Shown here: positions 17,673 through 40,594 of the stretch, piece after piece
How positions within the stretch are numbered: position 1 is the first letter of the stretch
Layout: every line of letters starts with the position of its first letter
Origin: Paludibacter sp.
GTDB taxonomy: Bacteria; Bacteroidota; Bacteroidia; Bacteroidales; Paludibacteraceae
Direction: 5' to 3'
Length of the DNA stretch: 64,000 bases
Assembly (NCBI GenBank): GCA_028710415.1
Contig: JAQTUE010000012.1
Span: 62,001-126,000, forward strand
Notes under the pieces: generated by a model
What the model saw: the letters and a program-made list of their open reading frames with translations, nothing else
Told to the model about the DNA's origin: nothing
Database searches by the model: none
Made by a program: the position numbers and the translations under genes

Positions 17673-17975
17673 TCATAGGCTTCCGCCGATTGAATTGCGC
17701 AACCGTTGCAACGCCGGTACATCATTTTTTGGTGTACAGCTTGGATACACTCCGCTGCACCACGCTTCTCTCAATGCACTTCGCCAATGGTGACCCTGCG
17801 TTTTAACAAAGTTAGCAAGTGCCGCGCTGTACTCATATACAGTTCGTCCGATTGTTACGGCATCTTCTATTTCGATAGCTTCTTTGATCCCTATACGGTC
17901 CGTTTTGTTTTTGGCCTGATCTTCATTAGAAACAACGTACATCTCATCTCCGTCGATTAAATGTATTACTACCAT
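17673..17975 (-). CDS. Hypothetical 100-residue protein, first gene of operon
   Basis: ATG 17975 follows GAAGGAG. First gene of the leftward 18.0-12.4 kb operon. Contains WCSGVYPSC. No family recognised. Confidence 0.7.
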   Translation of the reverse strand: MVVIHLIDGDEMYVVSNEDQAKNKTDRIGIKEAIEIEDAVTIGRTVYEYSAALANFVKTQGHHWRSALREAWCSGVYPSCTPKNDVPALQRLRNSIGGSL

Positions 17976-18022
17976 TGTATTCACTCCTTCACTCAAAAAT
18001 AGATTTTTTTTATGATTTGAAA

Positions 18023-18143: not shown

Positions 18144-19184
18144 ATGGATGCAAATAAACTAAAGTCGCTTGATCTCGCGATGAAGCAAATCGATAAAACA
18201 TTTGGAAAAGGAACACTTATGCGTCTCGGTGATAAAGAGATTGAACCCATTAACGCGATCAGTACCGGTTCTCTCGGTTTGGATCTCGCACTTGGAATTG
18301 GGGGCGTTCCGGAAGGACGCGTTATCGAGATCTATGGACCAGAGAGTTCGGGAAAAACAACGCTTAGTCTTCAGATTACGGCAGAGTGCCAAAAGAACGG
18401 CGGCATTTGTGCGTTTATCGATGCGGAACATGCGCTTGATATCGGATATGCAAAAAATCTCGGGGTTGACGTAGAAAACCTCTTAGTATCTCAACCGGAT
18501 TACGGTGAGCAAGCCCTTGATATAGTTGAAACAATTGTGCGCAGCGGAGCGGTAGACCTCATCGTAGTGGATTCCGTTGCGGCGCTTACCCCTAAAGTGG
18601 AGCTTGAAGGGGAAATGACAGATCAGCAAGTGGGCGTACAAGCACGTTTAATGTCAAAAGCTCTTCGCAAACTCACGGGGATCCTTCATAAAATGAACTG
18701 CACCATCATCTTTATTAACCAGATCCGCATGAAGATCGGAACCATGGGGTATGGCTCTCCTGAAACAACAACGGGTGGGAACGCTCTTAAATTCTATGCA
18801 TCGGTCCGCATCGATATCCGTAAAGTAGCTACATTGAAAAATGGTGATGCTCAAATCGGTAACCGAGTTAAAGCAAAAGTTATCAAAAACAAAGTTGCCC
18901 CTCCATTCCGTCAGGCAGAATTTGATATTATGTTCGGCGAAGGAATCTCCAAAGAAGGAGAGCTTGTTGATTACGGCGTCAAACTGGATGTCATCGACAA
19001 AAGCGGCGCTTGGTTCAGCTACGAGGATGTAAAACTCGGGCAAGGACGTGAAAACGTCAAACAAAAATTTAAAGATGAACCAGAACTCGCCAAAGCAATT
19101 GAAGGCAAAATCAAAGCGGTCATGAGCGGATCGGAAATCATGGTTATGAGCGAAACGGAAGCTGCTGAAGCAGATGAACAATAG
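18144..19184 (+). CDS. recA: RecA recombinase
   Basis: A full-length 346-residue RecA. It polymerises on single-stranded DNA and drives ATP-dependent strand exchange. Visible signatures are GPESSGKTT (Walker A), [22 protein letters not shown] (Walker B region), the loop L2 region [19 protein letters not shown], and an acidic C-terminus ([10 protein letters not shown]). AGAAGGAG precedes the ATG. It is surrounded by hypothetical plasmid genes rather than chromosomal neighbours, so it is probably an element-borne copy. Expression from a consensus promoter may be controlled through the palindrome at 18061. Confidence 0.97.
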
Positions 19185-22011: not shown

Positions 22012-23475
22012 CTACACTCGTTCGTTTTGCGGATTTGCTTCAAGAAGCATTCGATCAAGTAACGAAAAGAGCTCAGAGCTGCTTTTTTCCATCTCGGTGA
22101 CATAAGAAAGTATGTTCCCTTTTGACTCAGCGGTCAGACAATCCTGTTTAATGATACATTCGGATGCTTTTTTGGCACTGTCATGCACCATGGCGTGATG
22201 CCGATCAATTGTTTTAAAAGATGGTGTTTGACCGAAAGAGGATGAACCTACCCCCGAGTGATACCATTTACCGAAACGGCACTCGGTGTGTCCGACAATC
22301 TTTTTCGATTTTTCCTGATCCATATTGACGATCGCCGAATAAACGGTATGCTTAAAAACAATATGATCAATCTTCGCCGTCATAATAAATAAAGCGTCAT
22401 TGATAAGTTTTGCCCAATGCCCTACTTTGCTTGAGGTTTGAGCAGCTTGACGCAGTACGACTTCAAAGTCGGTGATCCCTTTTTGGGCACCGGAAGCAAT
22501 ATCGGAGATTTTTTCCGCATTTTCGTTCACGGCTTCGGATTCTTGACGCAATGTTTGAACCGTAATGGATATCTCTTGCGTTGCTTTTTGTGTCCGTTCC
22601 GCAAGTTTGCGGACCTCATCGGCTACAACCGCAAACCCTCTTCCATGTTCCCCTGCTCTTGCCGCTTCGATTGCTGCATTCAACGCAAGCAGATTGGTTT
22701 GATCCGCAATGTCTTTAATAAGGTCGGCAACCGTTCCGATTTCACTTGTACGCTGGTTTAACGCGTGAATCGTATCTTGTGAACCGACAATCAGTTCAAT
22801 CAAATAATCAAGGTTATGAACAATTTGTTCGATCTCTCCGACACTGGCCGATGACTCTTCCGCCGATTGCATCGCAACCTCATTGATTGTATTTGCGTGA
22901 CCGGCACTGACTGTGATGTCGCCTTGAATCATTCCAAGCCCAACTGCAATACCGCCGCTGGCTTTATCGAAAGCATGAGAGAGCTCGCCCTTCATTTTTT
23001 CACGAAACGACTCCGCAATACTGACGGCGGCATTGCGAAACATTGTGCCTGCAACTTTAATCCCTCCGCGATAACCGGATGTAAATACGGTTCGGTCTTG
23101 ATTTCCCGCATCCGCTGAAATAATTGTTGCCTGTACATCGCGAAGGAACTGCTCCATCTGATCGAGTAGATCATTCAGCCCCCATGCGACGGATGAAAGA
23201 ATATGTTCATCGGGAATGGACGTAACACGATTTGATAAATCACCGCCGCCCGCTTTAACGAGAACGTCACGCATTTGGCTAATAACACTATCGTTTAAAA
23301 TCTTCGTGCATGCATCCCGATTCCCATCGGGGATAAGAAACCCTGCAGCAAGAAGCACAATGCCGATAGCGCCGGGTATATATAAACCGACAATCAGCAG
23401 ATACACCGATAAAGACAGAAGCGCGAACGCAAAAAGGATCTTTTGATTACTTTTGAAGACGGAGGACAAAGTCAT
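22012..23475 (-). CDS. Methyl-accepting chemotaxis protein with CZB domain
   Basis: A 487-residue chemoreceptor. Two adjacent hydrophobic segments (about 12-48) form a short membrane anchor without a periplasmic sensor. A HAMP/linker region and the conserved signalling tip [38 protein letters not shown] follow. The C-terminal part is a CZB zinc-binding domain (H ... [11 protein letters not shown] ... HHAMVH). CZB domains bind zinc and respond to oxidants such as hypochlorous acid. It overlaps the PAS gene by 29 nt, so the pair probably works like a split Aer-type receptor. Confidence 0.92.
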
Positions 23476-23962
23476 GATAGGTTAATCCCTTTTCTGTGAG
23501 TATGGTGTTTAGTAGTTTTTCGGATGCGGTTACTTCGCCACGTTGTTCGGCTTCATGCAACTGCCTGTAAAGGTCAGGTATAACCCGTAGCGCTTGATCG
23601 CTCGGCCGACGTCTCACCGAATGATAGTCCTTGAAAATACCAGATTCATCGAATGTGCAGGTGACATTGGCAAAAACCCAATAATAAGACCCGTCTTTTG
23701 CAAGATTTTTTACATAGGCGAATATCTCTTCTTTTTTATTGATCGTTTCCCATAACAGCTTGAAAACTGCTTTTGGCATATCTGGATGACGCAGGATTGA
23801 ATGTGGTGATCCGATTAATTCAGATTCGTGATAACCGGAAATTTTGATGAAGTGTTTATTTCCGTAAGTAATGCGGCCGTTACGATCGGTTTTTGAAACG
23901 ATAAAATCATTTTCCTGCAACCGTATTTCGTTGGATGTTGGACGCGGCGACTGATGATGCAT
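23447..23962 (-). CDS. Aer-like PAS domain protein
   Basis: A 171-residue protein. PAS domain with the Aer signature: [21 protein letters not shown] and [19 protein letters not shown], typical of FAD-binding PAS domains that sense redox state. ATG 23962 follows AAAGGAGG. No membrane segment. It directly precedes and overlaps the chemoreceptor gene, so it likely passes a redox signal to that receptor. Confidence 0.9.
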
Positions 23963-23972
23963 TCTTCCTCCT

Positions 23973-24152
23973 TTATTCAATTGAATTGGTACGATCACTT
24001 CCACTTAGCCGATAGGGTCCAGATATTCCAAGAGTCGAAGGGACAAGTGTAATCGTGGCAAATACGGTGGTGTTTTTCCGTGGGTCAATAATCGCTACGA
24101 CCCCTTTTCGAGGAAAAGGAGCAACATTAGGGTTGGGTTCGGTTTTTTTCAT
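23973..24152 (-). CDS. Hypothetical 59-residue protein
   Basis: An ORF just upstream of the PAS gene, chosen at the second ATG. Pro/Thr/Val-rich (NTTVFATITLVPSTLGISGPY). No strong ribosome-binding site is seen, so it may be spurious, but it fills the gap and is co-directional. Confidence 0.35.
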   Translation of the reverse strand: MKKTEPNPNVAPFPRKGVVAIIDPRKNTTVFATITLVPSTLGISGPYRLSGSDRTNSIE

Positions 24153-25189: not shown

Positions 25190-25210
25190 ATACTGCTAAC
25201 ATTCGTTAAA

Positions 25211-25228
25211 GCTCCGGGCACCCGGAGC
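25211..25228 (+). terminator. GC hairpin after HU gene
   Basis: GCTCCGGG and CCCGGAGC form an 8-bp hairpin around CA, 22 nt after the HU stop. A T-rich stretch follows only about 25 nt later, so termination may be imperfect. Confidence 0.6.
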
Positions 25229-25288
25229 ACTCTCCATTCTTCCATGTCTCCCCTTTTTTTAATAAAATAAAAAAAATTATTTTTTATA

Positions 25289-25297
25289 TGCTAAAAT
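25289..25297 (+). promoter_or_regulatory. Extended -10 promoter of leader A
   Basis: TGC followed by TAAAAT (25292-25297), an extended -10. It places the transcript start near 25304, giving a leader of about 175 nt before the ATG at 25480. Confidence 0.55.
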
Positions 25298-25303
25298 ACT
25301 TTT

Positions 25304-25479
25304 AGGCACAGAAAGGCCGGCCGCTTCCGCCGTTATGGTATGGTGAATTTTCTGATCGTATTACAAAATTGGTTGCTTTAAGCGTTATTCGCGAAAACAC
25401 ACATTGAAACGGAAGCATCATTGTATTTAACTCCGACAGGAGTGGTTTTCGCTACTGAATAACTTTAAAGGAGCCTATT
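25304..25479 (+). ncRNA. Structured 5' leader A, conserved pseudoknot
   Basis: The leader can form helix P1 (GCTTCCG 25323-25329 with CGGAAGC 25410-25416) and P2 (GCGAAAAC 25391-25398 with GTTTTCGC 25445-25452). P2's 5' strand lies inside P1 and its 3' strand outside, i.e. a pseudoknot. A hairpin CTCC/GGAG (25431-25442) sits between the P1 and P2 3' strands. AATTTT/AAAATT (25345-25350 region with 25366-25371 region) gives an internal hairpin. It shares GGTATGGT, GTTGCTTTAAGCGTT and the end AAAGGAGC with leader B, whose helices have different bases but the same arrangement. P2 closes 27 nt before the start codon, so it could control translation. Confidence 0.6.
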
Positions 25480-26709
25480 ATGGCACACAAAGACGATACC
25501 CACCCAATCCTCCAAGAAATCAAAAACACCGCCAAAGATCATCAGGCATTCGAAAAAGAAAGAGGCAAAGACCTCATCTATGGCCATGCTCTTGATATTG
25601 CATCGAAGCGACTCGTAAACGTCGATTGGAACACCGCTTGCGCCATGGCAAAGAACGGCACTCTATCATTAAACAATGAGCCGATCAAAAACGAACCATT
25701 GTTCCAGATCCATTACCCAGAAGTTCGCGAAGGGGTTTTATTCCCTCATCAGATTGAAGCGATGAGCCGTCAAATGGAACTCGGGACTTTTGATGGCAAG
25801 GGTAAAACAATGTTTATCCCTGAATTTGTAACTTCACCATCAAAAGAAGTTACTGAAGCTACAAGGGAAACGTTGAAAGGTTTAGTGGAGAGCGGCGAGA
25901 TGATAGATACTGCCGGAATAAGTGGAGTCGAGTTTATTAAAGCTTTTAAAAATATGGCTGATCAACAAAATGAAAATCTTCAACCTTTCCATAGAGAGAG
26001 CAGAACTCCTTATGTCATTACTGCAGATGGGGCTTATCCTTTATTTGAAAAAGCTGCTCCTCCACCAGTTCTTTATGAAGATGTAACAAATGCAATAACT
26101 CATGCTGGAAGAACGACTATCGTTCATAATGTAGATATCCCAAATGCTAACGCCCCAATGCACACTGCCGCATTACCGCAATATTTGGAAGCGGTAGAGC
26201 GGATTTTTAAAGAGTATGCCCAAAGATATGACAAAAATATACTTTTCCCAATAAACTTAAAGGATCTATTCCAAGTCTTAGAAAGTGATGATGATATAGC
26301 TGCCATTATTGAGCAGATTTATGAATCAGCGAGAAAAAACAATATAGGGCTGTTATTGAATATTACCTCAACTGATGACTTAAAAGCAAAAATTGATATA
26401 CCTGAAATTGTTCTAATAAATGAGCATCAAAAACGGACAGCGTTCAAGCCATTCGACATCCCTGAGAAGATGCTCACCGAGTTTAGAAAATACGCAGGGT
26501 TGATAACGAATCATTCGTTGGTTATTGGCAAAACCAGAGACGCAGGCAAATCATTCTTTCCTGATGACATTGGAATGCATAAACAGCTTATTCATAAAAT
26601 GCTGACTGATTTAAGAAAGCATGGGGGGAGTCAACAAAAAGGCAATCAGAGCTTTTTCAATCACATAAACAGCAAACACATAAAGTCTAATTTCCGAAAA
26701 CCAAGATAA
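25480..26709 (+). CDS. Leader-controlled protein with DWN motif, 409 residues
   Basis: A 409-residue soluble protein. Residues about 30-65 (YGHALDIASKRLVNVDWNTACAMAKNG) resemble the small 'ALELVAK-LGY-DWN' domain annotated as glyoxalase-related in plasmid and conjugation proteins. The same type of segment occurs in the 28540 gene. The rest is not recognised; a helical central part and a basic C-terminus (KHIKSNFRKPR) are visible. AAAGGAG precedes the ATG, directly after the structured leader. A convergent terminator follows. Confidence 0.75.
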   Translation: MAHKDDTHPILQEIKNTAKDHQAFEKERGKDLIYGHALDIASKRLVNVDWNTACAMAKNGTLSLNNEPIKNEPLFQIHYPEVREGVLFPHQIEAMSRQMELGTFDGKGKTMFIPEFVTSPSKEVTEATRETLKGLVESGEMIDTAGISGVEFIKAFKNMADQQNENLQPFHRESRTPYVITADGAYPLFEKAAPPPVLYEDVTNAITHAGRTTIVHNVDIPNANAPMHTAALPQYLEAVERIFKEYAQRYDKNILFPINLKDLFQVLESDDDIAAIIEQIYESARKNNIGLLLNITSTDDLKAKIDIPEIVLINEHQKRTAFKPFDIPEKMLTEFRKYAGLITNHSLVIGKTRDAGKSFFPDDIGMHKQLIHKMLTDLRKHGGSQQKGNQSFFNHINSKHIKSNFRKPR

Positions 26710-26730
26710 AGGGCGGCTCAATCGCCCTTT
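26708..26730. terminator. Bidirectional terminator
   Basis: AAAGGGCG and CGCCCTTT form a perfect 8-bp hairpin around 7 nt, with AATTTAT after it. It lies exactly between the convergent genes ending at 26709 and 26734. Confidence 0.85.
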
Positions 26731-26733
26731 AAT

Positions 26734-28128
26734 TTATATGGAACGGATTGAACGAACCGCGTCTTGTATTTGATCAAAGTATTCAATCACTCCGGAGAGA
26801 ATATACTGGATCGTTTTTCTCATATCGTGATGCCACATATCATGATCACGATCGAGCAGATATTGATGAGTAATCCCGCAGAGCTCAAAAGCTCTGTTAT
26901 CAACAGACCCATCAAAATCGAATTTAACCACCCTCCCCTCTTTCACCTTTGGAAGCTGAGTTTCGATCGCCGCGTCCAGTATAGTTCGAAGAATCTTCCC
27001 GATGCTCTTGCCGGTATGTCGTTCAATGTGTTCGATATAAGGACGCATGCCCTCTTCCATTTGAAACAGGTGCACAGCATTGCTATGTCGTCGGGCGACC
27101 TCATCGGCGCTTTCGCCCGCGATCTTCTTACGGAGAAGGTACTCTTCACGATTATCGATATCGAACAATTGAGACATAGGAACACCGGGACCGGAGAACG
27201 TATGCAATCGATCGGCAATCGGTATATTGAGCAACACTTGAATAACATTGACCTCGAATGTACTGTCCCCGTCAATATTCAACATAGTGTCCAGTATATT
27301 GAGTATCGTCTTGGATGGCATATCGCATGCAAGATCACCGATCGCAAACATATCAGGCGCAAGGATCCGCGCCTTATCATAGACTATCGGGAGAATCGCA
27401 CCGGGCGTAATCGATTCAAGCCGTCCGGAAACAATCTTCCAATTCGGGAAAAAGAACGTATTGTACATGCTGATAAGCTCTATTGCCGGGCGCGGATCTT
27501 CTTCTGAATAAGCAACCGGCAACACCATAAAGTTTTTGTACATCGGAACCCCGATCGCTTTCATAAACGAATTGAGCTCTTTTTGAAAATCGCTTCCATT
27601 CATATATGAGTTGAGTTTTTTTTGAAGATCATTCCCGATGTCATCGGATCTGTCCGTTTCAAGATGGACTCTAATCTCTTTTTTGCCCCCACTATATGAC
27701 AAAGTGCCGATCTTCATCCCCCTGCTCTTTAAAAATTGGATGATCTCTTTTTTATGAATGATGAGCTTTGCGAGAGGCTGACCGGATCCGACAAACTTAG
27801 GTGCATTATTGAGAGATTCAGGCTGCAGCGCAAAAGATTGTTTCAATGCATGATGGTTTGAATGACCAAGGGTTTTTGAAAGCATATCAAGCAGCTCGGT
27901 TCGTTTGATGTCGATCGGCGGCGTCATGGATTTAAGTCTGCTGTGAAATCTTCCGTTAGCGGCTTTTAATAACTCGTAGGTAGATTCTCGGCCGGAGAAT
28001 GAGACATCGAAGAGCAATTTGGTTTCGTCTTCATTGATCGGATAGCCTGCTTTGAGTAATTGTTGTGTGATTGAGTCTGCCATGGCAGAAATGTTAATTG
28101 TAGGCATGTGGGTATGTGCGTGTTGCAT
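26734..28128 (-). CDS. Leader-controlled 464-residue protein
   Basis: A soluble protein with GGAG before the ATG. The N-terminal 110 residues contain TELLDMLSKTLGHSNHHALKQSFAL, a weak match to the DWN-type segment of its two neighbours. Central and C-terminal parts are unrecognised; LLRKKIAGESADEVARRHSNAVHLFQM could be helix-turn-helix-like. It is transcribed divergently from the P-loop gene at 28540 and has its own long leader with a similar possible pseudoknot. Function unknown. Confidence 0.75.
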   Translation of the reverse strand: MQHAHTHMPTINISAMADSITQQLLKAGYPINEDETKLLFDVSFSGRESTYELLKAANGRFHSRLKSMTPPIDIKRTELLDMLSKTLGHSNHHALKQSFALQPESLNNAPKFVGSGQPLAKLIIHKKEIIQFLKSRGMKIGTLSYSGGKKEIRVHLETDRSDDIGNDLQKKLNSYMNGSDFQKELNSFMKAIGVPMYKNFMVLPVAYSEEDPRPAIELISMYNTFFFPNWKIVSGRLESITPGAILPIVYDKARILAPDMFAIGDLACDMPSKTILNILDTMLNIDGDSTFEVNVIQVLLNIPIADRLHTFSGPGVPMSQLFDIDNREEYLLRKKIAGESADEVARRHSNAVHLFQMEEGMRPYIEHIERHTGKSIGKILRTILDAAIETQLPKVKEGRVVKFDFDGSVDNRAFELCGITHQYLLDRDHDMWHHDMRKTIQYILSGVIEYFDQIQDAVRSIRSI

Positions 28129-28285
28129 GGTTGTATCTCCATAGATATTTCATAAAGGTCTGATATTCGGATTTTTCCCCACTACCCGTATGACCTTATA
28201 TCCAGTCAATACGACAACATCAACAATATCAAGACTTTTCAGCAACCGAACATTCGGCGGGGAAGCAGGCCAAGTCAAAAGCACC
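28129..28285 (-). ncRNA. Structured 5' leader C, possible same pseudoknot
   Basis: Read on the minus strand, TTCCCC (28264-28259) can pair with GGGGAA (28180-28175) as P1, and AAGGTC (28197-28192) with GACCTT (28160-28155) as P2. This is the same interleaved order as leaders A and B. The 11-nt gap between P2-5' and P1-3' matches theirs (11 and 10 nt), as does the 26-nt distance from P2 to the ATG. A CCGAA/TTCGG hairpin is followed by GGTTGCT, matching the shared GTTGCT block. Sequence identity to A and B is otherwise low. Confidence 0.4.
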
Positions 28286-28291
28286 GCATAA

Positions 28292-28300
28292 ATTATAGCA
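28292..28300 (-). promoter_or_regulatory. Extended -10 promoter of leader C
   Basis: On the minus strand TGCTATAAT (28300-28292) forms an extended -10. It gives a transcript starting near 28285. Confidence 0.55.
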
Positions 28301-28331
28301 TATAGAACTTGTACACTTTTTTTAAAAGGCA

Positions 28332-28340
28332 TGATATAAT
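28332..28340 (+). promoter_or_regulatory. Extended -10 promoter of leader B
   Basis: TGATATAAT (28332-28340) is an extended -10 and predicts a start near 28347. It is divergent from the promoter of leader C, only about 35 bp away. Confidence 0.6.
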
Positions 28341-28346
28341 TCTTAT

Positions 28347-28539
28347 CGGCCGACAGAAGCCTATCCGTTCCCGCCTCGATGAGGTATGGTAAACCTGTTA
28401 TAACTTTTTTGGTTCGTCTCTTTGTTGCTTTAAGCGTTTACGATGAAAGCACAAACTGAAATCCAATGGGAACTGTTTCATATTGCAATCGCAATACATA
28501 GTTTGTGTTACACATCATTAACATTTAAAGGAGCATAGA
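28347..28539 (+). ncRNA. Structured 5' leader B, conserved pseudoknot
   Basis: P1 is GTTCCC (28367-28372) with GGGAAC (28468-28473). P2 is CACAAACT (28450-28457) with AGTTTGTG (28500-28507). Between the two 3' strands sits the hairpin ATTGC-AATC-GCAAT (28482-28495). The order and spacing equal those of leader A, while the paired bases differ, which is covariation. Shared unpaired blocks are GGTATGGT, GTTGCTTTAAGCGTT, GAAAGCACA and the final TTTAAAGGAGC. A small AGGT/ACCT hairpin encloses GGTATGGT. Confidence 0.6.
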
Positions 28540-29496
28540 ATGCAACCCCTTTTCCCAAATCTTACATTCGAACAACTGCGTCAGGCAAAGAAAAATGCCC
28601 AATCATCACTCGGAGCTCTCGGGATCGATTTAACCAGCTCGACTATCGGCAATCATGTCGCAAATATCTTTGGTTATCATGACTGGAACGCTGCAAGTGC
28701 AATTACGAAGAAAAATTCTACTGTGAGTTCCATGGCGTCAAATGTTGCTTACAACGCATCGATTACACAGGCGACTAAGACAGAACCCCTACTCTATCAA
28801 TTTAGAAAACCAAAGCGAAGCGGCATAATGGATTATTATAGAGAACTTGTCAATCATGAGCTATCATTTTCCGAAGAAAACCTTTGGAATGCGAAAGATA
28901 TCCACTTTGTTCCTACTGAATCAAATGCCTTATTCGGTGTTACAGGTCATGGGAAGACATTCATCATGTTGGATTGGGCTAATGCACTCATAAGCGATCC
29001 AAAAGGTATGCCATTTGTATACTTTCTCAAACAAGGCCATTTTATGCGAGGTGAAAATGGTAATCTTAAAATGTATGATGCGTCAGAAGATGTTCAAGCG
29101 AGGATTGTTCCGATTGAATCTTATCCTATAGGACAAAGGTCTGCAGTATTTGCCATACCTGATGATATGGAATATTCAATAATCTTGAATGCTCTTCGAT
29201 CCGCCATGAGACACGGATACCATGTATTTATCGACGAAAACAAATTTTTATTTGAAATGCTCGATGAGGTAGTCAATGCTGGATATAAAAACTTTACGGT
29301 TGCGATTCAGCCAGTTCGAGAATTATTTGAACACAATATGGATGAAATATCCAAATATGCATTTACAAACATACTGATAGGTAAGCAGTTAGACCTTGGT
29401 TCAGATCGGTATTTTCAACACATGAATATTGATATAGAACAAAAAGAATTGTCTAATTTGAATAAGGGTCAATTTTTTTGGGCGCATGCTCAATAA
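28540..29496 (+). CDS. P-loop ATPase with N-terminal GY-DWN domain
   Basis: A 318-residue protein. Residues 8-55 (FEQLRQAKKNAQSSLGALGI ... NHVANIFGYHDWNAASA) match the small glyoxalase-related DWN domain found in plasmid ATPases. A P-loop follows (GVTGHGKTFIMLDWANAL, about 130-140), then a Walker B-like YHVFIDENKF and the closing LSNLNKGQFFWAHAQ. The last motif is typical of the HerA/VirD4-like group that moves DNA or protein. It has no membrane segment, so it is not a complete VirD4 coupling protein. Its leader may control translation. Confidence 0.75.
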   Translation: MQPLFPNLTFEQLRQAKKNAQSSLGALGIDLTSSTIGNHVANIFGYHDWNAASAITKKNSTVSSMASNVAYNASITQATKTEPLLYQFRKPKRSGIMDYYRELVNHELSFSEENLWNAKDIHFVPTESNALFGVTGHGKTFIMLDWANALISDPKGMPFVYFLKQGHFMRGENGNLKMYDASEDVQARIVPIESYPIGQRSAVFAIPDDMEYSIILNALRSAMRHGYHVFIDENKFLFEMLDEVVNAGYKNFTVAIQPVRELFEHNMDEISKYAFTNILIGKQLDLGSDRYFQHMNIDIEQKELSNLNKGQFFWAHAQ

Positions 29497-30380: not shown

Positions 30381-30692
30381 TTAATGGTTCTTTGAAAAAT
30401 CTTCGGCAATTTGCTTATACAATCGTTTAAGAGCTGGTGGTGGTTTTAGATTGCCGGACATCTCTTCTCGGAAAAAAGCTGAAAGCATGTAAACTTTTTC
30501 TTTTTCTTCATCTTCGGAAGCAAGCATCTTTCCGGTACGGATTGCGCTTTTCAACTCATCATCTTCAGTCAAACGATAGAGAACGACCATTGCTTCTTTT
30601 AAAACAGAGAGGACCCATTTCCCCTCATTCTGCCCTATGATGATCCCTTCAAGGTCTTCATCAAAAATATGGTTTTCTTCTGCTGAACTCAT
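30381..30692 (-). CDS. Hypothetical 103-residue protein of pilus operon
   Basis: Joined to the PilT-like gene by an ATGA overlap. An acidic N-terminus and a helical body; no signal peptide or membrane segment. Possibly a cytoplasmic partner of the ATPase. No family recognised. Confidence 0.7.
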   Translation of the reverse strand: MSSAEENHIFDEDLEGIIIGQNEGKWVLSVLKEAMVVLYRLTEDDELKSAIRTGKMLASEDEEKEKVYMLSAFFREEMSGNLKPPPALKRLYKQIAEDFSKNH

Positions 30693-31978
30693 GCTTTCTC
30701 CTGCTCTCCGTTATATCCATGGAACAACCCAATATTGGAATCCAAAATACGAAGACGATCTGCTGGTAGAATCTTTTCATTACGTTGGAGTTCTTTTAAT
30801 GATTCCATGAAGGTGCACTTGTCAAGGCCATCGCCGCCGTCTTGGTAGATGACACGGAAAAGGTTGTCGAGGTCTCCATCAAGAAGGTACTTACGTAAAG
30901 TACCGGAAATGATAACAATTTCAAGAAGTGGATAAATTTTACCTTCTGAATTTCGAATCAGCTTGTGAGCAACAACGGCTTTTAGAGCTGAAAGCAAACT
31001 ACGGTCATTGCCTACAGCTACCAAAAGGTTAGAAATCGCTTCGGCAAAATTTATAGCGTGAATCGTGCTGAATACCAAGTGTCCTCTTGAAGCGACATCC
31101 AATACGATCTTCATCTCTTCGTGATTGCGGGCTTCTCCGATCAAAACGGCTGCAGGATAATTTCGCAACAAATGACCGGGAATTTCTTCAAAATCGCTTC
31201 TACCTGTTGGTGCTTTCAAATTGATACCAAGCTCAAATTGAGATACGGGTGCTTTTGTATCAGGGTATCGATATTCAACCGGGTTTTCATACGTCAGCAT
31301 TCTGCCGGTTGTGCTTTCAGCAAGAAGACCAAACTCTGCAGCGATTGCCGTCGTTTTACCGGATCCAGTTGGTCCGATATGTAATATCAACCCACCGCCA
31401 TGAATTTCAGCCGTTTTATAATTAATCATCTCTACTGCATCACCATCATTTTCATTCATTCGCTTTGGTGAAGGGATTTTTAAAGATGTTTCATTGACAA
31501 ACGACTTGATATACTTCACAAAAAATTGAGGGTATCCAATTTGCCCGATTTGTGGAATTGTATGAGGGTGTATCCGAATAGCAAGACACGCCCCTTCATT
31601 ATCATTGGAGAAGTTTATTCGGAATGACCCAACGCCTGCAATCGATATGCTAAAGTTGATAACTTTACCTTGAAGATCAAAATCATCACCTGTGTCGACG
31701 AAACACGAAACAATGTTTTTGATCTCACGATCAGTGATATGTTTTCTCTTTGTTGGAGGAGAATACGGTATATGGGTCTTAATCGACCCAAGATAGATTT
31801 GTTGTTCTTGTCGAACAAGAATATCGGTGATATTCAAACCATTATCATTCCATCGATGTTTAATATCATAAAGCATTTCTCCGAACCAAGCGTTATCTGC
31901 ACCAAGTGCTATAAAAAACTTTTGCTCCGTTGCTTTGTGATCGTCTTCATCAAAATTAGTAATGCGTTTGTTTGCCAT
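30689..31978 (-). CDS. PilT-like pilus retraction ATPase
   Basis: A 429-residue secretion ATPase of the PilT/GspE superfamily. Walker A is GPTGSGKTT (about residue 203), then RMLTYENPVEYRYP (Asp box region), AVLIGEARNHEEM (Walker B) and RGHLVFSTIHAI (His box). The tetracysteine zinc motif of PilB/GspE is absent, so it groups with the retraction type. It works at the base of the type IVb pilus together with the PilQ-like extension ATPase at 36676. Confidence 0.85.
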   Translation of the reverse strand: MANKRITNFDEDDHKATEQKFFIALGADNAWFGEMLYDIKHRWNDNGLNITDILVRQEQQIYLGSIKTHIPYSPPTKRKHITDREIKNIVSCFVDTGDDFDLQGKVINFSISIAGVGSFRINFSNDNEGACLAIRIHPHTIPQIGQIGYPQFFVKYIKSFVNETSLKIPSPKRMNENDGDAVEMINYKTAEIHGGGLILHIGPTGSGKTTAIAAEFGLLAESTTGRMLTYENPVEYRYPDTKAPVSQFELGINLKAPTGRSDFEEIPGHLLRNYPAAVLIGEARNHEEMKIVLDVASRGHLVFSTIHAINFAEAISNLLVAVGNDRSLLSALKAVVAHKLIRNSEGKIYPLLEIVIISGTLRKYLLDGDLDNLFRVIYQDGGDGLDKCTFMESLKELQRNEKILPADRLRILDSNIGLFHGYNGEQEKA

Positions 31979-31999
31979 GGGTTATCCTTTCTGTTGGGT

Positions 32000-33169
32000 T
32001 TAATAAGCAATATAATTGCGACAATAATTCGGTCTTGTGACAGAAGTATCTTTGCAGCTGGCCGTAAAAAGTACACTTGCATAAGGTGGTTTTATCGCAC
32101 CTGCATAATAATTGTCAGCGGGGACAGACGGAGCAGAAGGCAGTGCCGTATCGGTACATACACTCAAATCCGTATTGGTGCATAAGCTTGAGATGGGGAG
32201 CATCCGAACCATATTACCAAATCCATCGAGAGAAATGGCAGCATTTGTTGCAGATACATTAGCAATCACGTTTTTCATAACGGTAGCACGATGTGGAGTT
32301 GTTGTTTGCCAAATGGCTGGCGAAGTCAAATTGGTACAGGTACCTGCGGTATCTGTACATACTGCGGAACTAACACTTGCAGGTGTGCCTCCAAGAGCTT
32401 CCCAATGCCACGGGACAAATTCATCATCTACACTATTTAATCCTGTAGGAGCAGTATTCTGCGATTCCCGAATTAACTTTGCATTGAAAAATGCTTTCAT
32501 CGATCGCGAAAATGTATTGAATTTTTCCAGCGAATAATTACGGCGTTTTTGCCACAGATCAGCAAATGTACCATTATACGTGACAATATTTACCTGATTG
32601 CTTCTGGCATTTTGTTGTCGATAAGAGATTGTAAACGACGGAACCACAAGAGGATTTATATCCGATCCCGCTGTGTGTGCACTGGCAACAGCACCGGCTC
32701 CAAGATCGTAAGTTAATCCAGTAAGATTACCGCATCTCAAGGTAAGGCTTGATGCTCCTTTTGATACCTCCTGACAATAGGGTGCGTACGATTGAACAAT
32801 TGACTGTTCAAGCGTTGTTTGTTCTTGCGCACTAAGGGTAGACCACTGTATGGAGTAAATGATTTGATCTCCTGTCCCGGCAGAACTAAAAACCGGCAGT
32901 GGGGAAGTTGCATTACAAGACGAATGACCCCATCCCCAACTCGCTTGAGTTCCTGTGGTAATAGAAGAACAATACGGCTCGAAGGTATCCGTAATGGATT
33001 CAAACGTTGTTTTTAAACCATTATCAAAATCCCGATAGAAATTCAGTTCTTTTTGAAATCTGGTTGCTTCATTCATTGAACTCATACCTATGATTGCTGA
33101 TGTTGCCAACAATGTCAATATGAAAATCCCGATAACGATTTCAACCATCGCAAATCCACTACGCTTCAT
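32000..33169 (-). CDS. PilV-like minor prepilin
   Basis: A 389-residue protein. The N-terminus MKRSG-FAMVEIVIGIFILTLLA is a type IV prepilin leader with Gly at -1 and Glu at +5. A large Thr/Ser-rich globular part with several cysteines follows. The size and operon position fit the tip-adhesin-like PilV of R64 thin pili. No shufflon-type repeats or recombinase gene are seen. The leader would be cleaved by a prepilin peptidase not found in the window. Confidence 0.8.
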   Translation of the reverse strand: MKRSGFAMVEIVIGIFILTLLATSAIIGMSSMNEATRFQKELNFYRDFDNGLKTTFESITDTFEPYCSSITTGTQASWGWGHSSCNATSPLPVFSSAGTGDQIIYSIQWSTLSAQEQTTLEQSIVQSYAPYCQEVSKGASSLTLRCGNLTGLTYDLGAGAVASAHTAGSDINPLVVPSFTISYRQQNARSNQVNIVTYNGTFADLWQKRRNYSLEKFNTFSRSMKAFFNAKLIRESQNTAPTGLNSVDDEFVPWHWEALGGTPASVSSAVCTDTAGTCTNLTSPAIWQTTTPHRATVMKNVIANVSATNAAISLDGFGNMVRMLPISSLCTNTDLSVCTDTALPSAPSVPADNYYAGAIKPPYASVLFTASCKDTSVTRPNYCRNYIAY

Positions 33170-33171
33170 TG

Positions 33172-34263
33172 TTACTTCTCCGCCGATTTTTTATACAAAA
33201 CAAGTGTTCCGGAATAGCTGCTATCAGCTCCATTCAACGACCGAAGATAGACAGGACAAATGTCTGCAGCGATCAAATACTTCGTCAAGAATAATGATGG
33301 TTTGATATTTTTAAAATCGTATACGATTTCATTATCTTGTCGAGATCCAATTGAAATATTTTCAACATCCGTTATGGAATTGATTGCGTATAAGCATTCT
33401 TCACTTAGTGTCTTCTGCGTATTTTTGTGCAAATCATCAATCTTGGATGTTTCTTCAATTTTTACATTTTGAACGTAAAGATCGTTACCCGCATTAAGAG
33501 TGCCTTTTGCAGGGAAGTCATATTCAAAAACTATTTCACCTTTCCCGATCATAGCTGGGTATTGACCACTCTCACCGGTTCCTTGATCGATTTGCCCAAC
33601 CACAAAAGATTTAATCTTTTCATGTTTTGATAAAAAAGGATCATTAGTGATATTTCTCGCCTCTTTTAATAGTTTTTCGGCAAATTTTTTGCTTATATCA
33701 TCTTTTAATAAGAGGATTTGGTCTTCGTCCAAAACAAGCGGTGGTGGTGGTGGCGCTTGTACGACTTTCGGTTTTTCTTCCGTTAATGCCGGCACAATAA
33801 CGGCGAGAATTGCAAGGATAAGCACACCAAGTATTCCGAATTTGATAATGTTCTGATTACGCCCATAAGTTGACCGTATTTCTGCAGGGCTCATTTCAAT
33901 GTGAAGGTGCCCATGTCCGCCGAAATGCGTTTCAATTGACGAAATTAATTTCATCTCATCATCAGGATCTTCAAGAATCAAACGATAAATAAAATAAGCA
34001 TGATATGATTGTGAAGAATCAAGGAGATACAATGCATCACCGACACGATAATATGCACGCAATTGTTCTTCATTCGCTACATACAAAACTGCATATATAA
34101 CGTCTTCAACAACCTCCAACATGGATTCATCACTGACGACGACACCAAGGTGCTTGTTATCCCCGCCAAAACGGATTTTTTTCACTATTGAATATGAACT
34201 CTTTTCAGTTTCCATATCAGGATCAATAATGAATACTTCTCCAAGTTTTATAGCTTTGTTCAT
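33172..34263 (-). CDS. PilO-like pilus assembly protein
   Basis: A 363-residue bitopic membrane protein. A cytoplasmic domain spans about 1-135, a membrane segment about 140-160 (IIKFGILGVLILAILAVIVPAL), then a proline tract (APPPPPLVLDEDQ) and a periplasmic domain with few cysteines. Position between the PilP-like and PilV-like genes and topology fit PilO of type IVb systems. Sequence similarity was not tested. Confidence 0.6.
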   Translation of the reverse strand: MNKAIKLGEVFIIDPDMETEKSSYSIVKKIRFGGDNKHLGVVVSDESMLEVVEDVIYAVLYVANEEQLRAYYRVGDALYLLDSSQSYHAYFIYRLILEDPDDEMKLISSIETHFGGHGHLHIEMSPAEIRSTYGRNQNIIKFGILGVLILAILAVIVPALTEEKPKVVQAPPPPPLVLDEDQILLLKDDISKKFAEKLLKEARNITNDPFLSKHEKIKSFVVGQIDQGTGESGQYPAMIGKGEIVFEYDFPAKGTLNAGNDLYVQNVKIEETSKIDDLHKNTQKTLSEECLYAINSITDVENISIGSRQDNEIVYDFKNIKPSLFLTKYLIAADICPVYLRSLNGADSSYSGTLVLYKKSAEK

Positions 34264-34272
34264 CGTGAATCC

Positions 34273-34911
34273 TTATTTCTTTTGTGCTTTCGGCAAAGGT
34301 GCGATTTTTCTATATCCTTGCGTTGTAAGCTCCCCACAATCGCCATCTGCACAAAATACAACTTTTGTTTTCACTGGTTCAGGCGCAGGAGGGGGAGTCA
34401 TTCCTTGATTGGCAGAACCCGGTCCAAACATAACCATTTGTTCTCCACTACCGATTGACGCACCTGTAACAGGCAAAATCTTTCTTTCCGATGTGAATCG
34501 CGGCGGAGCCATGGAAACCGATGATGAGTCAGGCGTTTTTTTGGCATCTTTTGAATTGGCCTCAGCTTTATTTTTTTGAGCACTAAATGTCAGAAAAACA
34601 TTATCAAGTCCTTTATCATCCAAGACTCCACCCGAAGATGTAATAGATGGAGACATAATAGTTACACTGGATGATGCAGGGCCGCTCATTGTTACCGTCT
34701 CAGCAGAATTTGAGTCAATTGTCGGAGGTGGCACATGATTAGCGATATCAAGCGGCGCACTCGGTCTTGCCGCTTCAGCCGACACCGATGGTGTCGCTGT
34801 TACAGGCGAAGAAGTAGTTGCAAAGTAGTTTGTATAAACAATTACGCCTATTGCGATCAGCAGACCTATCAATAAGATGATTTTCCCCGTATTCTTTTTT
34901 GCACTACTCAT
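34273..34911 (-). CDS. PilP-like periplasmic pilus protein
   Basis: A 212-residue protein. ATG 34911 is chosen over 34944, which lies in the secretin gene. Residues about 10-28 form a membrane anchor (IILLIGLLIAIGVIVYTNYF). A long Pro/Ser/Thr-rich linker and a small C-terminal domain (KVVFCADGDCGELTTQGYRKI) follow. It follows the secretin gene, where PilP-type pilotin/linker proteins are found. Assignment is by position and architecture. Confidence 0.55.
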   Translation of the reverse strand: MSSAKKNTGKIILLIGLLIAIGVIVYTNYFATTSSPVTATPSVSAEAARPSAPLDIANHVPPPTIDSNSAETVTMSGPASSSVTIMSPSITSSGGVLDDKGLDNVFLTFSAQKNKAEANSKDAKKTPDSSSVSMAPPRFTSERKILPVTGASIGSGEQMVMFGPGSANQGMTPPPAPEPVKTKVVFCADGDCGELTTQGYRKIAPLPKAQKK

Positions 34912-34912
34912 T

Positions 34913-36655
34913 TTACAGCTCCTCGATTGTTGAAGGTGAGACAATGATCGCTAATTCACTTACAGTGTCAGCATCACTTTCTTTACCGAATAACCATCCA
35001 AAGCTTGGAACATTGATCGCTCCCGGAAGCCCTTCTTTGTTGTTTTGTTTTTTAGACATTTTGAAACCGGTAAGAATCAACATTTGATCCATGTTGATTT
35101 TTGCAGGAACATTGATTTCATTTGAATTGATTTTAGGTAATTTAAACTCGCCGCTCGCCATGCTGAAGGTGACCATCTCTACAAGCTCTGAAACGGTAAT
35201 GCTGGTTGACATATCCAATACTTCCCCACTTTCATCGATGCGAGGGGTGACATTGATAATAATCCCAGCTTCCGCTTCTCTGGCTTCAAGGTTAGCTTGG
35301 GTTGTTGTTCCGGTCGATGTTACTACAGATGTCATATACGGTATTTTTTCAACCGTTTTGAATGAGTTCATTACCCCCATTTTTGAAACAGAAGAAAATT
35401 CGCGAATAATGTTTGTTTTGCCGTATGACTCAAGTGCCGAAATAACAGTTGGCATTCTGGCCGAATCGACGACCAAGCTTGACCCGCCACTCACTGATGA
35501 CGAATAATTCCAACCAAAATTTACTTTTGTACCGAGAAGTGTTTGATTAATCGCGCTCCAATCTACCCCTGCACTGACACCATTATTCAGATCGATTCGG
35601 AGAATTGAAATTTTTAAATTGAATGGGCGTTGTTTCTCGATTTCTTTCATAAGAAGTTTTTTGGCCGCTCTGATGTTGTCAGGGGTGTCTACAAGGGTAA
35701 TATATCCACGTTGTGAAACGTCGACACTTCCCTTGGACGAGATGTATTTTTTGATGTATTTTTCAAGATCTTCTTTTTGATTCTCTGAATCTGAAACAAT
35801 GACACCTGATGACCCGCTCATACCGGAAGATGATGAAGATGATGAAGACCCACTGCTTCCGGATGATGAACGAGAGGCGGAAGAAGCAGAAGTAAATTTG
35901 TAATTAAAATACAAAGGGATATCGATGGTAGCGATTTCATAATCCATAACCGTGTAAGCTTTTGGTCCTGTTTGCTCGACAACGAGGTTATTGGCTTTTA
36001 AAAATGTTCGAAAAGCCTCCTCTTTATCACATCCGCTATAAAAGAACGTTACTTTTTTTGCAGGAGCTAAAGTATCCTGAGCCAACCCATTCAATTCATA
36101 AAAACGCGTTTTATAAACAAAACTCATGCCGAAGCGATCGGCAAATATTTTTAAAATTTCTCCGGGATAAACAGGCTCATTGACATTGATCGTTACATTG
36201 GCCGGCGTATTATTTCCACATGTTGTTCCGTTAATATTCTCTTCAATCAGGCTTTTGTTTGCCACGATCAAAGAATTATCTCGAAACCGATAATCAATCC
36301 CAGAAGTTTTTCGTATACGCTTCAGAAAATCGCCCATTGACGAATTAACATCTCCACTAAAAAGATAGGAATCAGAAGGAATAAAACTCTGATCTACCGT
36401 AACATCAACTTGTTCCGCCATTTGATTGACCGCTTTATTTACAGGCATTTTGTAAAAAGTACCGGATACGTTCTTATCCATAACAACCTTGGCCTTATCG
36501 ACCGCAGGAGTATGCAGTGATAGCTTTTCTTTATCAGGATAGTTTTCATGATTAATAACAGGCAGTGATTGTTCTTTGACGGACACATGTGCACATCCTG
36601 TCAATAAGATAAGTCCAAGAGCCCCAGATAATGCAATTTTGTTTACGTGATGCAT
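34913..36655 (-). CDS. PilN-like outer-membrane lipoprotein secretin
   Basis: A 580-residue lipoprotein (signal ends in LLTGC, so Cys is lipidated). Two N-terminal secretin N-type domains (about 50-250) are followed by a Ser-rich linker (SSSGSSGSSSSSSSSGMSGS, about 265-285) and an N3-like domain. The C-terminal secretin core (about 370-575) contains the EKIPYMTSVV and VTPRIDESGEVLDMSTSI motifs. It would form the outer-membrane pore of the type IVb pilus, as PilN of R64 or BfpB does. Confidence 0.88.
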   Translation of the reverse strand: MHHVNKIALSGALGLILLTGCAHVSVKEQSLPVINHENYPDKEKLSLHTPAVDKAKVVMDKNVSGTFYKMPVNKAVNQMAEQVDVTVDQSFIPSDSYLFSGDVNSSMGDFLKRIRKTSGIDYRFRDNSLIVANKSLIEENINGTTCGNNTPANVTINVNEPVYPGEILKIFADRFGMSFVYKTRFYELNGLAQDTLAPAKKVTFFYSGCDKEEAFRTFLKANNLVVEQTGPKAYTVMDYEIATIDIPLYFNYKFTSASSASRSSSGSSGSSSSSSSSGMSGSSGVIVSDSENQKEDLEKYIKKYISSKGSVDVSQRGYITLVDTPDNIRAAKKLLMKEIEKQRPFNLKISILRIDLNNGVSAGVDWSAINQTLLGTKVNFGWNYSSSVSGGSSLVVDSARMPTVISALESYGKTNIIREFSSVSKMGVMNSFKTVEKIPYMTSVVTSTGTTTQANLEAREAEAGIIINVTPRIDESGEVLDMSTSITVSELVEMVTFSMASGEFKLPKINSNEINVPAKINMDQMLILTGFKMSKKQNNKEGLPGAINVPSFGWLFGKESDADTVSELAIIVSPSTIEEL

Positions 36656-36675
36656 GGTATGTTTTCCTTTCAGTG

Positions 36676-38382
36676 TTAAAGTATTGCGTCTAAGATTGCA
36701 GGTGAGGTATCAACCTCGCCATCAATCAACCGTTGGATGAATGTATCAAGTCTGTTTTGGCCGAGCTTTCGCGTACACGCATATTTTTCAATGTCGTAAT
36801 TTGTTGGTTTGGTTTTTAAAATGTATTCAATCAACTCAACAGAAGGCTCAAAATATTCATACATTGGAACACGTCCTCCTGAATACCCTGAATACCCACA
36901 TTTCGGACATCCTTTCGGATTATGCAGATAGGTTTTGAATCCGTCTTTATTTTGAACAAAACGCATAGCGCTTTCTTTGTGTTCATACCGAAATTTCGGC
37001 ATCATCTCATTTATTTTGGTCACATTTACTTTCTCGGTATCCTCTTTTTTACATTCACATAAGCGCTTAGTCAGCTTCATATTGACAGATAAAAAGACCA
37101 GAGGGACCAAGCTCTCTTTATTCATTTTGAATACATGCTCAAGCGCATGAAAAACTTCAAAGCAGCTACGAATATGGATTGTGGTATAAACAAGTTGACC
37201 TGCGTAAGCCATTTCAAAAACGGCATCGACAAGCTGACTGTCATTTCTCATCTCTCCGATACTCAATACGTTTGGGTCCGCACGTTTTGCTGCCTTAGTG
37301 AACTCATGGTATCCCATTCGATCTTCTTTGGGATCAGGCGGAAGATAAAGCTGATGCTGTGTAATATTTTTACCGCTTTGAACATACTCAATCGGATCTT
37401 CAATAGACAAGATACGCCGATGTTTATCGATAGAAGCAAGGACTTCAGCGAGGAATGTGGATTTTCCGGATCCGGTAATCCCGGATATTACGACAAAGCC
37501 CCCATCAAGTCTTGAAGTTCTTATAACTGAATCGATGATGGGGGCATGGAACCCTTTAGCTTTTAAATCAGGTTTGCTGATAACCGTTTTTTTAATGACA
37601 CGAGCGATGACGGACATCCGTCTTCCGTTTAAACCATCGGGTATAAATACAAGACGCAAATCAATATCTCCATATATGATCCTTGCGTCCATGGGCGCAG
37701 TATGTTTATCTGCTTTAAAACTTCCCTTTGAACTTCGTGATGCGTCGAGTTTAATCTGGGTTACAAATTCCCACCCTTGGTCGATATCGAGAAGATATTT
37801 TTCTTGCTCTATCAAATCACCATTTTTTCGAAAAAACATATAGTAGAAATTTTCTTTTGGGATAATATGAATATCACTTGCACCCTGATTGGCTGCATCC
37901 CGCGCTACCGTTTCAAACGAAAAAGATACAGTAGTCTCTTTATGAACACCGCCGGAATTGGCTACAGCAGTATGGATACGCTCATCCATAATTAAATAGT
38001 CATCATAATCTAAGATAAACTGTGGTCTTAATTCCGAAAGCACGGGATGAAAGCAAGGTACCACTTCACGATCATCATAGAAATATCTGGTTTTTCCATC
38101 TTCATCGCGAACAATAAGCTGGCTACTATGCCCACGAATTAATTCCGCAGAATTACCAAAAATTTCCATCATAAATTCAGCAAAATCACCATACTTTACA
38201 TACCCAAGCTCATAAAGAATTTGCATGATATGTTGCGAATTTTTCAAACTTTTACGTTTGTTATATGCCGTACTATACTGATTCATCGTCATTTTTTTCT
38301 TATAGACCAGCATTTGCAGAACATAGTTCCACTCTTCACCCTGTTTAAGTACCGGTTCTGGTAACATCATCAAATCCTTCAT
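36676..38382 (-). CDS. PilQ-like pilus extension ATPase
   Basis: A 568-residue GspE/PilB superfamily ATPase. Walker A is ISGITGSGKSTFLAE (about 305), then RRILSIEDPIEYV, VLSIGEMRNDSQL (Walker B) and AGQLVYTTIHI. A CxC-type and CPKCGYSGYSGGR zinc motif near the C-terminus is characteristic of assembly ATPases. It would power pilus extension; PilQ plays this role in R64. Confidence 0.88.
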   Translation of the reverse strand: MKDLMMLPEPVLKQGEEWNYVLQMLVYKKKMTMNQYSTAYNKRKSLKNSQHIMQILYELGYVKYGDFAEFMMEIFGNSAELIRGHSSQLIVRDEDGKTRYFYDDREVVPCFHPVLSELRPQFILDYDDYLIMDERIHTAVANSGGVHKETTVSFSFETVARDAANQGASDIHIIPKENFYYMFFRKNGDLIEQEKYLLDIDQGWEFVTQIKLDASRSSKGSFKADKHTAPMDARIIYGDIDLRLVFIPDGLNGRRMSVIARVIKKTVISKPDLKAKGFHAPIIDSVIRTSRLDGGFVVISGITGSGKSTFLAEVLASIDKHRRILSIEDPIEYVQSGKNITQHQLYLPPDPKEDRMGYHEFTKAAKRADPNVLSIGEMRNDSQLVDAVFEMAYAGQLVYTTIHIRSCFEVFHALEHVFKMNKESLVPLVFLSVNMKLTKRLCECKKEDTEKVNVTKINEMMPKFRYEHKESAMRFVQNKDGFKTYLHNPKGCPKCGYSGYSGGRVPMYEYFEPSVELIEYILKTKPTNYDIEKYACTRKLGQNRLDTFIQRLIDGEVDTSPAILDAIL

Positions 38383-38922
38383 TTATTTACCAACAATTTC
38401 TGTATATCCGCATACATCACCGATATAGCTATCATTTAGTCCGCTCAAATTGTATGTATAGTTTTTTCCGGTCACAAACGACAGAGGGATTGTATTGGCG
38501 AATAGATACTTCCCGTATGCTTGCATATTGGAACAATCAGCGGCCAGTGTAGGCGACGTCGTACCTGAATAAATATTGGTTATTAAACCACTTGTGCCGG
38601 ACGTTCCTACAAAAGCCCACACTTGTGACGGCGTTCTCCATGTGGAACACCCGTTTGAATGGGCTATCGTCGAAACGGTACGGCATGTCCGTATTAATGC
38701 TGTTTCGATCTGCTCTTTCTCTGTGTCATCAGCGGAGGCATTAGCCTCCTCGTACCCGCCGATAGATTTGTATTCCCCTACTCGATAATGAAAGGTTCGA
38801 CTTGCTGGGTCAATATAACTATGATGGTTTTCAGATACGATGTTTGAATCAACCCTTGAACTCTCAAGGCTGTAGTATCCAACTCCAAGCATCAGCATTA
38901 AAAAAACTACGGCGGGCAACAT
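38383..38922 (-). CDS. Pilin-like or exported protein in pilus operon
   Basis: A 179-residue protein with a hydrophobic N-terminus (MLPAVVFLMLMLGVGYYSLES) but no prepilin cleavage motif. The rest has four cysteines and Gly/Thr/Ser-rich stretches like a minor pilin or a pilus-associated periplasmic protein. It lies directly between pilS-like and pilQ-like genes. Family not recognised. Confidence 0.6.
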   Translation of the reverse strand: MLPAVVFLMLMLGVGYYSLESSRVDSNIVSENHHSYIDPASRTFHYRVGEYKSIGGYEEANASADDTEKEQIETALIRTCRTVSTIAHSNGCSTWRTPSQVWAFVGTSGTSGLITNIYSGTTSPTLAADCSNMQAYGKYLFANTIPLSFVTGKNYTYNLSGLNDSYIGDVCGYTEIVGK

Positions 38923-38937
38923 GACTGGTATACTCGA

Positions 38938-39495: not shown

Positions 39496-39598
39496 GTATC
39501 CTTTTTGTATGGTATGATGTTTTACGATTGTGAAAAAGAGGCAATGCTTTTTCATGGTGACTGACCACAATAAAAAAGTCTATAGGATAGATACGTTT

Positions 39599-40588: not shown

Positions 40589-40594
40589 ATACAT

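Follow-up and report, generated by a model that had tools for sequence, protein, structure and literature searches.

The stretch of DNA analysed here, called the window, comprises 64,000 nucleotides (nt) of a Paludibacter sp. assembly (positions 62001-126000 of C42, a contig of 165,113 bases; the assembly holds 6,283,671 bases in 104 contigs, with 6.32% contamination), and it contains two plus-strand genes that are each directly preceded by a leader with a candidate pseudoknot. Leader A (175 nt, 25305..25479) precedes gene A (25480..26709), which encodes 409 amino acids (aa), and leader B (192 nt, 28348..28539) precedes gene B (28540..29496), which encodes 318 aa. A third leader, D, lies elsewhere in the assembly, at L010:1030-1209 on contig C32, where it was found by a motif search with the core (one mismatch) and by an independent protein search, neither of which used structure. 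The gene downstream of leader D encodes a protein homologous to B (51% identity, residues 31-315, E 1.1e-71) that is 374 aa long from the first ATG and 372 aa from the ATG used; both homologues carry a Walker-type motif, and all three proteins are uncharacterised. By eye, a -10-like box lies upstream of each leader: TAAAAT at 25292..25297 (plus strand), 7 nt before the presumed first base of leader A; TATAAT at 28335..28340 (plus strand), 7 nt before GGC/GGT in leader B; and TATAAT at L010:1018-1023, 6 nt before GGC/GGT in leader D. None of these boxes was listed by a promoter scan in which a -35 hexamer is required as well. Transcription would probably start at the leader's GG, just after this TATAAT-like box.

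A preliminary description of the window had proposed that leaders A and B share sequence blocks and two interleaved helices, P1 and P2, and much of that proposal holds. Both leaders carry GGTATGGT, GTTGCTTTAAGCGTT and the ribosome-binding region. P1 pairs GCTTCCG (25323..25329) with CGGAAGC (25410-25416) in leader A and GTTCCC (28367..28372) with GGGAAC (28468-28473) in leader B, as seen in a listing of uninterrupted helices. P2 is formed by GCGAAAAC (25391..25398) and GTTTTCGC (25445-25452) in A, with pair probabilities of 0.98-1.00, and by CACAAACT and AGTTTGTG in B, where the 5' strand is also delimited as GCACAAACT (28449..28457, partner 28500-28508). The strands interleave in the order proposed, with 11 nt (A) or 10 nt (B) between P2-5' and P1-3', and P2 ends 27 nt (A) or 32 nt (B) before the ATG. 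A shared GAAA-CACA block is likewise present in A and B, but by eye it occupies different helix positions in the two leaders and is absent from D. What did not survive is the picture of P2 as an isolated helix: it forms just the top of P5-P4-P2'-P2, a long and imperfect stem that is predicted to run through the conserved core and to cover the ribosome-binding site.

This predicted stem, which the preliminary description overlooked, is the main feature of the leaders. The helix listing for A, B and D gives a third common helix, P4, located directly at the Shine-Dalgarno (SD) sequence and formed by CTTTAAG/TTTAAAG in A and B and by CTTAAAG/TTTTAAG in D, a T-A to A-T exchange that changes both sides of one pair. 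In leader A, P4-5' lies in the conserved core at 25376..25382 (partner 25464-25470; pair probabilities 0.95-1.00), and in leader B at 28428..28434 (partner 28524-28530; 0.97-1.00). Outward of P4 is P5 (25367..25374 with 25472-25479 in A, 28419..28426 with 28532-28539 in B), which has 7 of 8 positions paired in both leaders, one pair being a U-U mismatch; inward are P2' (in A, GTTATTC at 25384..25390 with 25457-25463, pair probabilities 1.00) and then P2. The conserved GTTGCTTWAAGCGTT block is thereby predicted to pair with the region around the SD sequence AAGGAG in all three leaders, and most of the GTTGCTTTAAGCGTT block lies in the strand that faces the SD region. In partition-function folding with Vienna, the P4 and P2 pairs of the three leaders have probabilities mostly of 0.95-1.00, and nearly every pair of the whole stem reaches at least 0.95, the lowest being 0.78 for the end pair of P2 in B. 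The bases of AAGGAG have pairing probabilities of 1.00, 1.00, 1.00, 0.00, 0.98 and 1.00 in each folded leader, such that five of the six are paired (25468-25473 within the SD region 25464..25479 of A; 28528..28533 in the constrained fold of B), and the one unpaired base forms a G-G mismatch that is kept in A, B and D. RNAalifold, applied to a MAFFT alignment made without structure, recovered P5-P4-P2'-P2 as well, with both-sided changes in 7 of 35 predicted pairs. The leaders are thus predicted to hold the SD in a pairing with an upstream strand that is conserved across homologues, as SD-sequestering leaders do.

Two hairpins cap the stem, and the first of them contains P1-3' in its loop. When the P1 strands were held open, P1-3' fell in an apical hairpin loop in A, B and D, followed by a second hairpin; in leader A these are P3a (25401..25424, constrained fold) and P3b (25430..25443, ACTCC/GGAGT), and in leader B, P3a is at 28458..28479 (constrained fold), while in the unconstrained minimum fold of B part of P1-3' is paired locally instead. 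From its apical loop, P1-3' reaches back to the 5' segment. The P1 duplexes are worth -10.4, -8.0 and -10.4 kcal/mol in A, B and D, compared with costs of 4.3, 4.5 and 1.6 kcal/mol for opening the strands (the pseudoknot penalty is excluded from these values). Both P1 strands lie outside P5-P4-P2, and SD pairing was unchanged when they were kept free; therefore, P1 is compatible with an occluded SD, and it may act as a clamp that holds the stem head and the 5' domain together. Intrinsic-terminator attenuation was considered and set aside as the main idea: P3b is terminator-like in A and D but not in B, and the run of T residues is part of P2-3'.

A stronger test of the pseudoknot than A and B themselves is leader D, which forms P1 as GTCCCC/GGGGAC and P2 as GCAAAGAC/GTTTTTGC (with one G-U pair) in the same strand order as A and B. 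When P1-5' and P2-3' of D were fixed and the middle was shuffled, both partners occurred in order in 1 of 20000 shuffles (frequencies for the P1 partner alone and the P2 partner alone were 0.0018 and 0.023). Because D re-forms both helices with different bases, the P1/P2 pseudoknot is probably real. Leaders A and B are, each on its own, only moderately unusual. Dinucleotide shuffling reproduced an interleaved layout as good as theirs 20 times in 2000 for A and 73 times in 2000 for B when the middle loop was limited to 15 nt, and 36 and 189 times in 2000 with the loop unlimited, such that these two leaders alone would leave room for doubt. Folding energies gave z scores of -2.99 for A (2 of 200 shuffles as good), -2.64 for B (1 of 200) and -3.97 for D.

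Changes on both sides of a pair that preserve the pairing were found among A, B and D in 3 of 6 pairs of P1, 2 of 8 of P2, 1 of 7 of P4, 3 of 8 of P5 and 0 of 3 of P2'. Counted for P1, P4 and P5 together on the MAFFT alignment, 6 of 20 pairs had both-sided changes (2.3, standard deviation 1.1, after shuffling; 0 of 500 shuffles as high) and 88.3% of cells were paired (79.2% after shuffling; 1 of 500 as high). P1-3' of B is misplaced in this alignment, so that P1 is paired in just 72.2% of cells there. Sliding these helices left at most 58.3% of cells paired, with 0 or 1 both-sided changes. When strands were swapped among the leaders, the observed 94 of 96 paired cells were reached by 24 of 7776 swaps, and in all of these either P1 and P2 keep their own strands or the strands exchanged are equivalent.

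These comparisons bear on the possibility that the leaders are recent duplicates whose helices are coincidental, reflecting chance or shared ancestry without selection. The small number of sequences, and the fact that interleaved helices, taken by themselves, are no great rarity among shuffled sequences, speak for this explanation, but the similarity ends at the edges of the leaders, several of the changes are compensatory, and the anchored test of D gave its layout so rarely that we consider coincidence disfavoured and very unlikely. Leader DNA identity between pairs was 0.57, 0.56 and 0.65, in each case higher than in any of 20 shuffles. The upstream 150 nt did not exceed their shuffles, and when the genes were compared over their first 180 nt, B-D was the one pair that did (0.55 vs a shuffled maximum of 0.53).

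The claim that covariation points to a selected RNA structure is supported by the third homologue, D, and not by the divergent leader C (28285-28129, minus strand) that the preliminary description had included. Leader C has the letters of P1 and P2 in the interleaved order, but a comparable layout arose in 441 of 2000 shuffles of its sequence (225 of 2000 when the middle loop was limited to 15 nt). With filters off over 27900-28345, its best score to R1, the covariance model built from A, B and D, was 0.4 bits, and its folding z was +0.18; its membership of the family is therefore not supported. The R1 scores of leaders A (171 bits) and B (181 bits) are those of training members.

We propose that A, B and D form one family of 5' untranslated RNA leaders in which the downstream gene would be translationally off by default, a reading to which we assign a probability of roughly two in three. 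According to folding and to covariation among three sequences, the 3' two thirds of the leader would form the long imperfect stem, with the core opposite the SD; the two hairpins would cap it, the loop of the first would pair with the 5' segment through P1, and P1 may lock the stem head against the 5' domain. Repression would then be the default, and candidates for what opens or bypasses the stem are a protein or ligand that binds it, another RNA such as an antisense transcript, cutting by RNase and a brief co-transcriptional window. Several points weigh against this proposal. The three sequences come from one bin with 6.32% contamination, and so represent few independent events; the covariation term contributes just -0.22 of -16 kcal/mol in RNAalifold; several helices were chosen from the same sequences on which they were tested, such that the shuffles and slides favour them; and plain folding with Vienna gives P1 a probability of about zero, since pseudoknots are excluded there. 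In addition, SD pairing is common on C42 and C32, where the three genes rank 23-25 of 125 overall and 8-10 of 125 for long-range pairing. SD occlusion alone is therefore not special, and the evidence lies in its conserved, compensated form. Together, our results make a new cis-regulatory RNA credible, albeit from a small sample; its general kind is known, but it is built more elaborately than the preliminary description recognised.

How such a stem might be opened can be considered in light of its stability. The predicted free energies of A, B and D, -48.6 to -55.5 kcal/mol, make spontaneous opening unlikely, and this would suit kinetic or processing control, in which the finished leader is locked, such that the gene is translated solely from transcripts still being made or from those whose long stem has been cut by RNase. 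A precedent is provided by the aapA toxin mRNAs of Helicobacter pylori, whose primary transcripts have a sequestered SD and need a ribonucleolytic activation step (PMC6733600). In the leaders described here, however, the anti-SD strand is upstream, inside the leader, whereas the long-distance pairing of aapA joins the 5' and 3' ends. We regard this form of control as possible, if on the unlikely side.

A riboswitch-like or RNA-opened switch, in which a small molecule or a trans-acting RNA binds the 5' domain with its conserved GGTATGGTRAA and shifts the stem, could account for the identity of GGTATGGT in A, B and D, which the SD stem does not explain. With P1 docking the 5' domain onto a three-way junction, the leaders may also resemble ligand-binding RNAs in outline, and, like translational riboswitches, these leaders have a structured, SD-sequestering form and a conserved domain. 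Unlike riboswitches, they have no Rfam match in the window, precede genes that are not metabolic and were found in one assembly only. C42 has three copies of the complement of GGTATGGT and C32 has none, and the longer pieces tested add no match; a search of these two contigs for exact complements of five short motifs revealed no evident antisense candidate. We consider a switch of this type rather unlikely.

The conserved 5' domain also contains ATG GTR AAY, within GGTATGGTRAAY, in A, B and D, which begins open reading frames (ORFs) of 13, 5 and 32 codons that start Met-Val-Asn (25340-25382 in A, 28385-28402 in B and from about 1072 of L010 in D). Translation of such a short upstream ORF could in principle open the stem. 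The ORFs differ widely in length, however, by eye they have no obvious SD, and none at a usual distance, and although GGTATGGT and the core are in frame with each other in both A and B, they are not so spaced in D, making this form of attenuation highly improbable. Coding conservation of the core was rejected, as the frame differs in D.

A first guess for what opens the stem is the shared N-terminal domain of the products themselves. Proteins A, B and D all match positions 4-59 of the PF20066 (Glyoxalase_8) profile near their N-termini, each below the curated cut-off of 23.7 bits: a search of the assembly gave 20.8, 16.8 and 16.9 bits, and the values were 19.1 (A, E 0.0014), 15.6 (B, E 0.017) and 15.3 bits protein by protein. 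The assembly search at E up to 1 gave three PF20066 matches, which are genes A, B and D, and a first R1 search of the assembly, in which 150 of 848 candidates were scored, gave three strong matches of 171-181 bits at the same genes (the next, at 18.2 and 16.8 bits, were judged to be chance). The leader and the weak PF20066-like domain were therefore found at the same three genes and at no others in the assembly, within the candidates scored, which makes autoregulation a testable guess. Specifically, the N-terminal domain might bind the folded leader and either stabilise repression or open the stem. Over their full lengths, protein A shows no similarity that could be detected to either B or D, so that the leader plus the N-terminus look like one cassette, and this pattern would fit autogenous control.

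Co-inheritance of a 5' cassette, however, accounts for the association without binding, and only 150 of the 848 leader candidates entered it. A profile from which A was left out does not recover A significantly (4.8 bits, E 0.85), so the domain in A rests mainly on the Pfam match. Although PF20066 is present in 29 of 289 genomes of another class (in several, only its N-terminal part matched), R1 found no leader at 30 PF20066 loci drawn from those genomes. We therefore regard autogenous control as doubtful. A further extension of it is more doubtful still: that the leader and domain constitute a two-part cassette carried by a mobile element, in which a pseudoknot-locked, SD-hiding leader is joined to a small N-terminal domain that recognises it, such that unrelated C-terminal parts fused to this unit would come under the same self-control. 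Other searches added little to the description of the proteins. Protein B has a sub-threshold match to AAA_25 (E 0.029); predicted folds had mean predicted local distance difference test (pLDDT) values of 35.0 and 38.4, too poor for use; the best Protein Data Bank (PDB) sequence match had E 0.48, a chance value; PHROGs gave no match below 0.039; and the profile searches made returned no ribosomal-protein match for A, B or D.

In the collections searched, relatives of the leaders and of their proteins were not found outside their own assembly. The preliminary description knew of no RNA family with this layout, and Rfam 15 agrees, with 0 matches in the window; even at E up to 5, the three matches within 25200-28600 scored 13.4-16.3 bits against cut-offs of 42.5-45. 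Exact core patterns were present in 0, 4 and 0 stretches of viral_contigs and in 5 of genome_contigs, but in these nine the rest of the leader is absent by eye and R1 scores reach at most 13.9 bits, from the motif only, and we rejected them as relatives. Protein query A2 returned 45 pattern stretches in viral_contigs and 204 in genome_contigs, none of which was confirmed, and only the source assembly among 393 genomes of the order. Distant blastn searches of plasmids with A, B and D gave no match, protein B had no relatives in plasmids or phages, protein A had none in viral_contigs, and among 100 near genomes both proteins were found only in their own assembly. A leader of this design is not described among the literature matches listed, which is weak evidence of absence.

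Plasmid repZ-type leaders, aapA mRNAs and ribosomal-protein operators are closest in function, and none fits on the features tested. The repZ pseudoknot opens an SD-hiding structure, and a strand of the pseudoknot overlaps that structure. Here, neither P1 strand lies within the SD stem and P1 formation does not free the SD, and the downstream genes match no replication initiators in the matches seen. The likeness is more general: in the repZ leader of ColIb-P9 and the I-complex, a pseudoknot acts as a switch for translation of a plasmid gene (PMC10724649), and the leaders here would similarly be mRNA leaders on a plasmid that tie a pseudoknot to translation control. The aapA mRNAs likewise have an SD sequestered in a stable long-range structure of the primary transcript, in an organism that is a presumed relative if the putative assignment of the host to Campylobacterota is correct (PMC6733600). 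Unlike the small aapA/IsoA toxins, however, the genes here have 409, 318 and 374 codons, and the pairing is inside the leader and accompanied by a pseudoknot. The Escherichia coli alpha operon/S4 and rpsO/S15 systems exert autogenous translational control through pseudoknotted leaders (PMC10931766), but the proteins encoded here match no ribosomal protein in the searches made.

The setting suggests a mobile element. C42 is probably a plasmid because it encodes ParA/ParB-like proteins, RecA and PilB/PilT-like ATPases. Its HU, RecA and chemoreceptor genes presumably resemble those of Campylobacterota, and PF20066 was detected in 3 of 395 genomes of the Paludibacter phylum at E up to 0.01, this assembly counted; given this near absence and the contamination of the bin, C42 and C32 may both derive from some other organism. 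Among the neighbouring genes, a chemoreceptor with methyl-accepting chemotaxis protein (MCP) signalling and CZB zinc-binding domains (22012-23475, minus strand) adjoins a PAS-like protein (23447-24004, minus strand; by eye), and the PilB- and PilT-like ATPases belong to a cluster at 30381-40594 (minus strand) that is probably a pilus or transfer system. The SDs of the RecA gene (18144-19184, plus strand) and of a divergent gene (17673-17996, minus strand) appear fully paired at long range, which is probably just the complementarity of two facing SDs on one strand. The contig of leader D carries a reverse transcriptase gene (RVT_1, E 1.9e-19) with a glycine-rich gene nearby (L012, G000:C32, 1072-2379, plus strand, and 9375-10238, minus strand), possibly, as a guess, a diversity-generating retroelement.

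If our proposal is correct, these leaders would represent an undescribed RNA regulator that joins a long SD-hiding stem to a pseudoknot between a loop and the 5' end, an unusual combination, and that is repeated before different genes of what appears to be a single mobile element. It would connect a compact, testable RNA with an N-terminal domain about which little else has been established, and would indicate that environmental plasmids can harbour orphan regulators of this kind that current RNA catalogues do not list.

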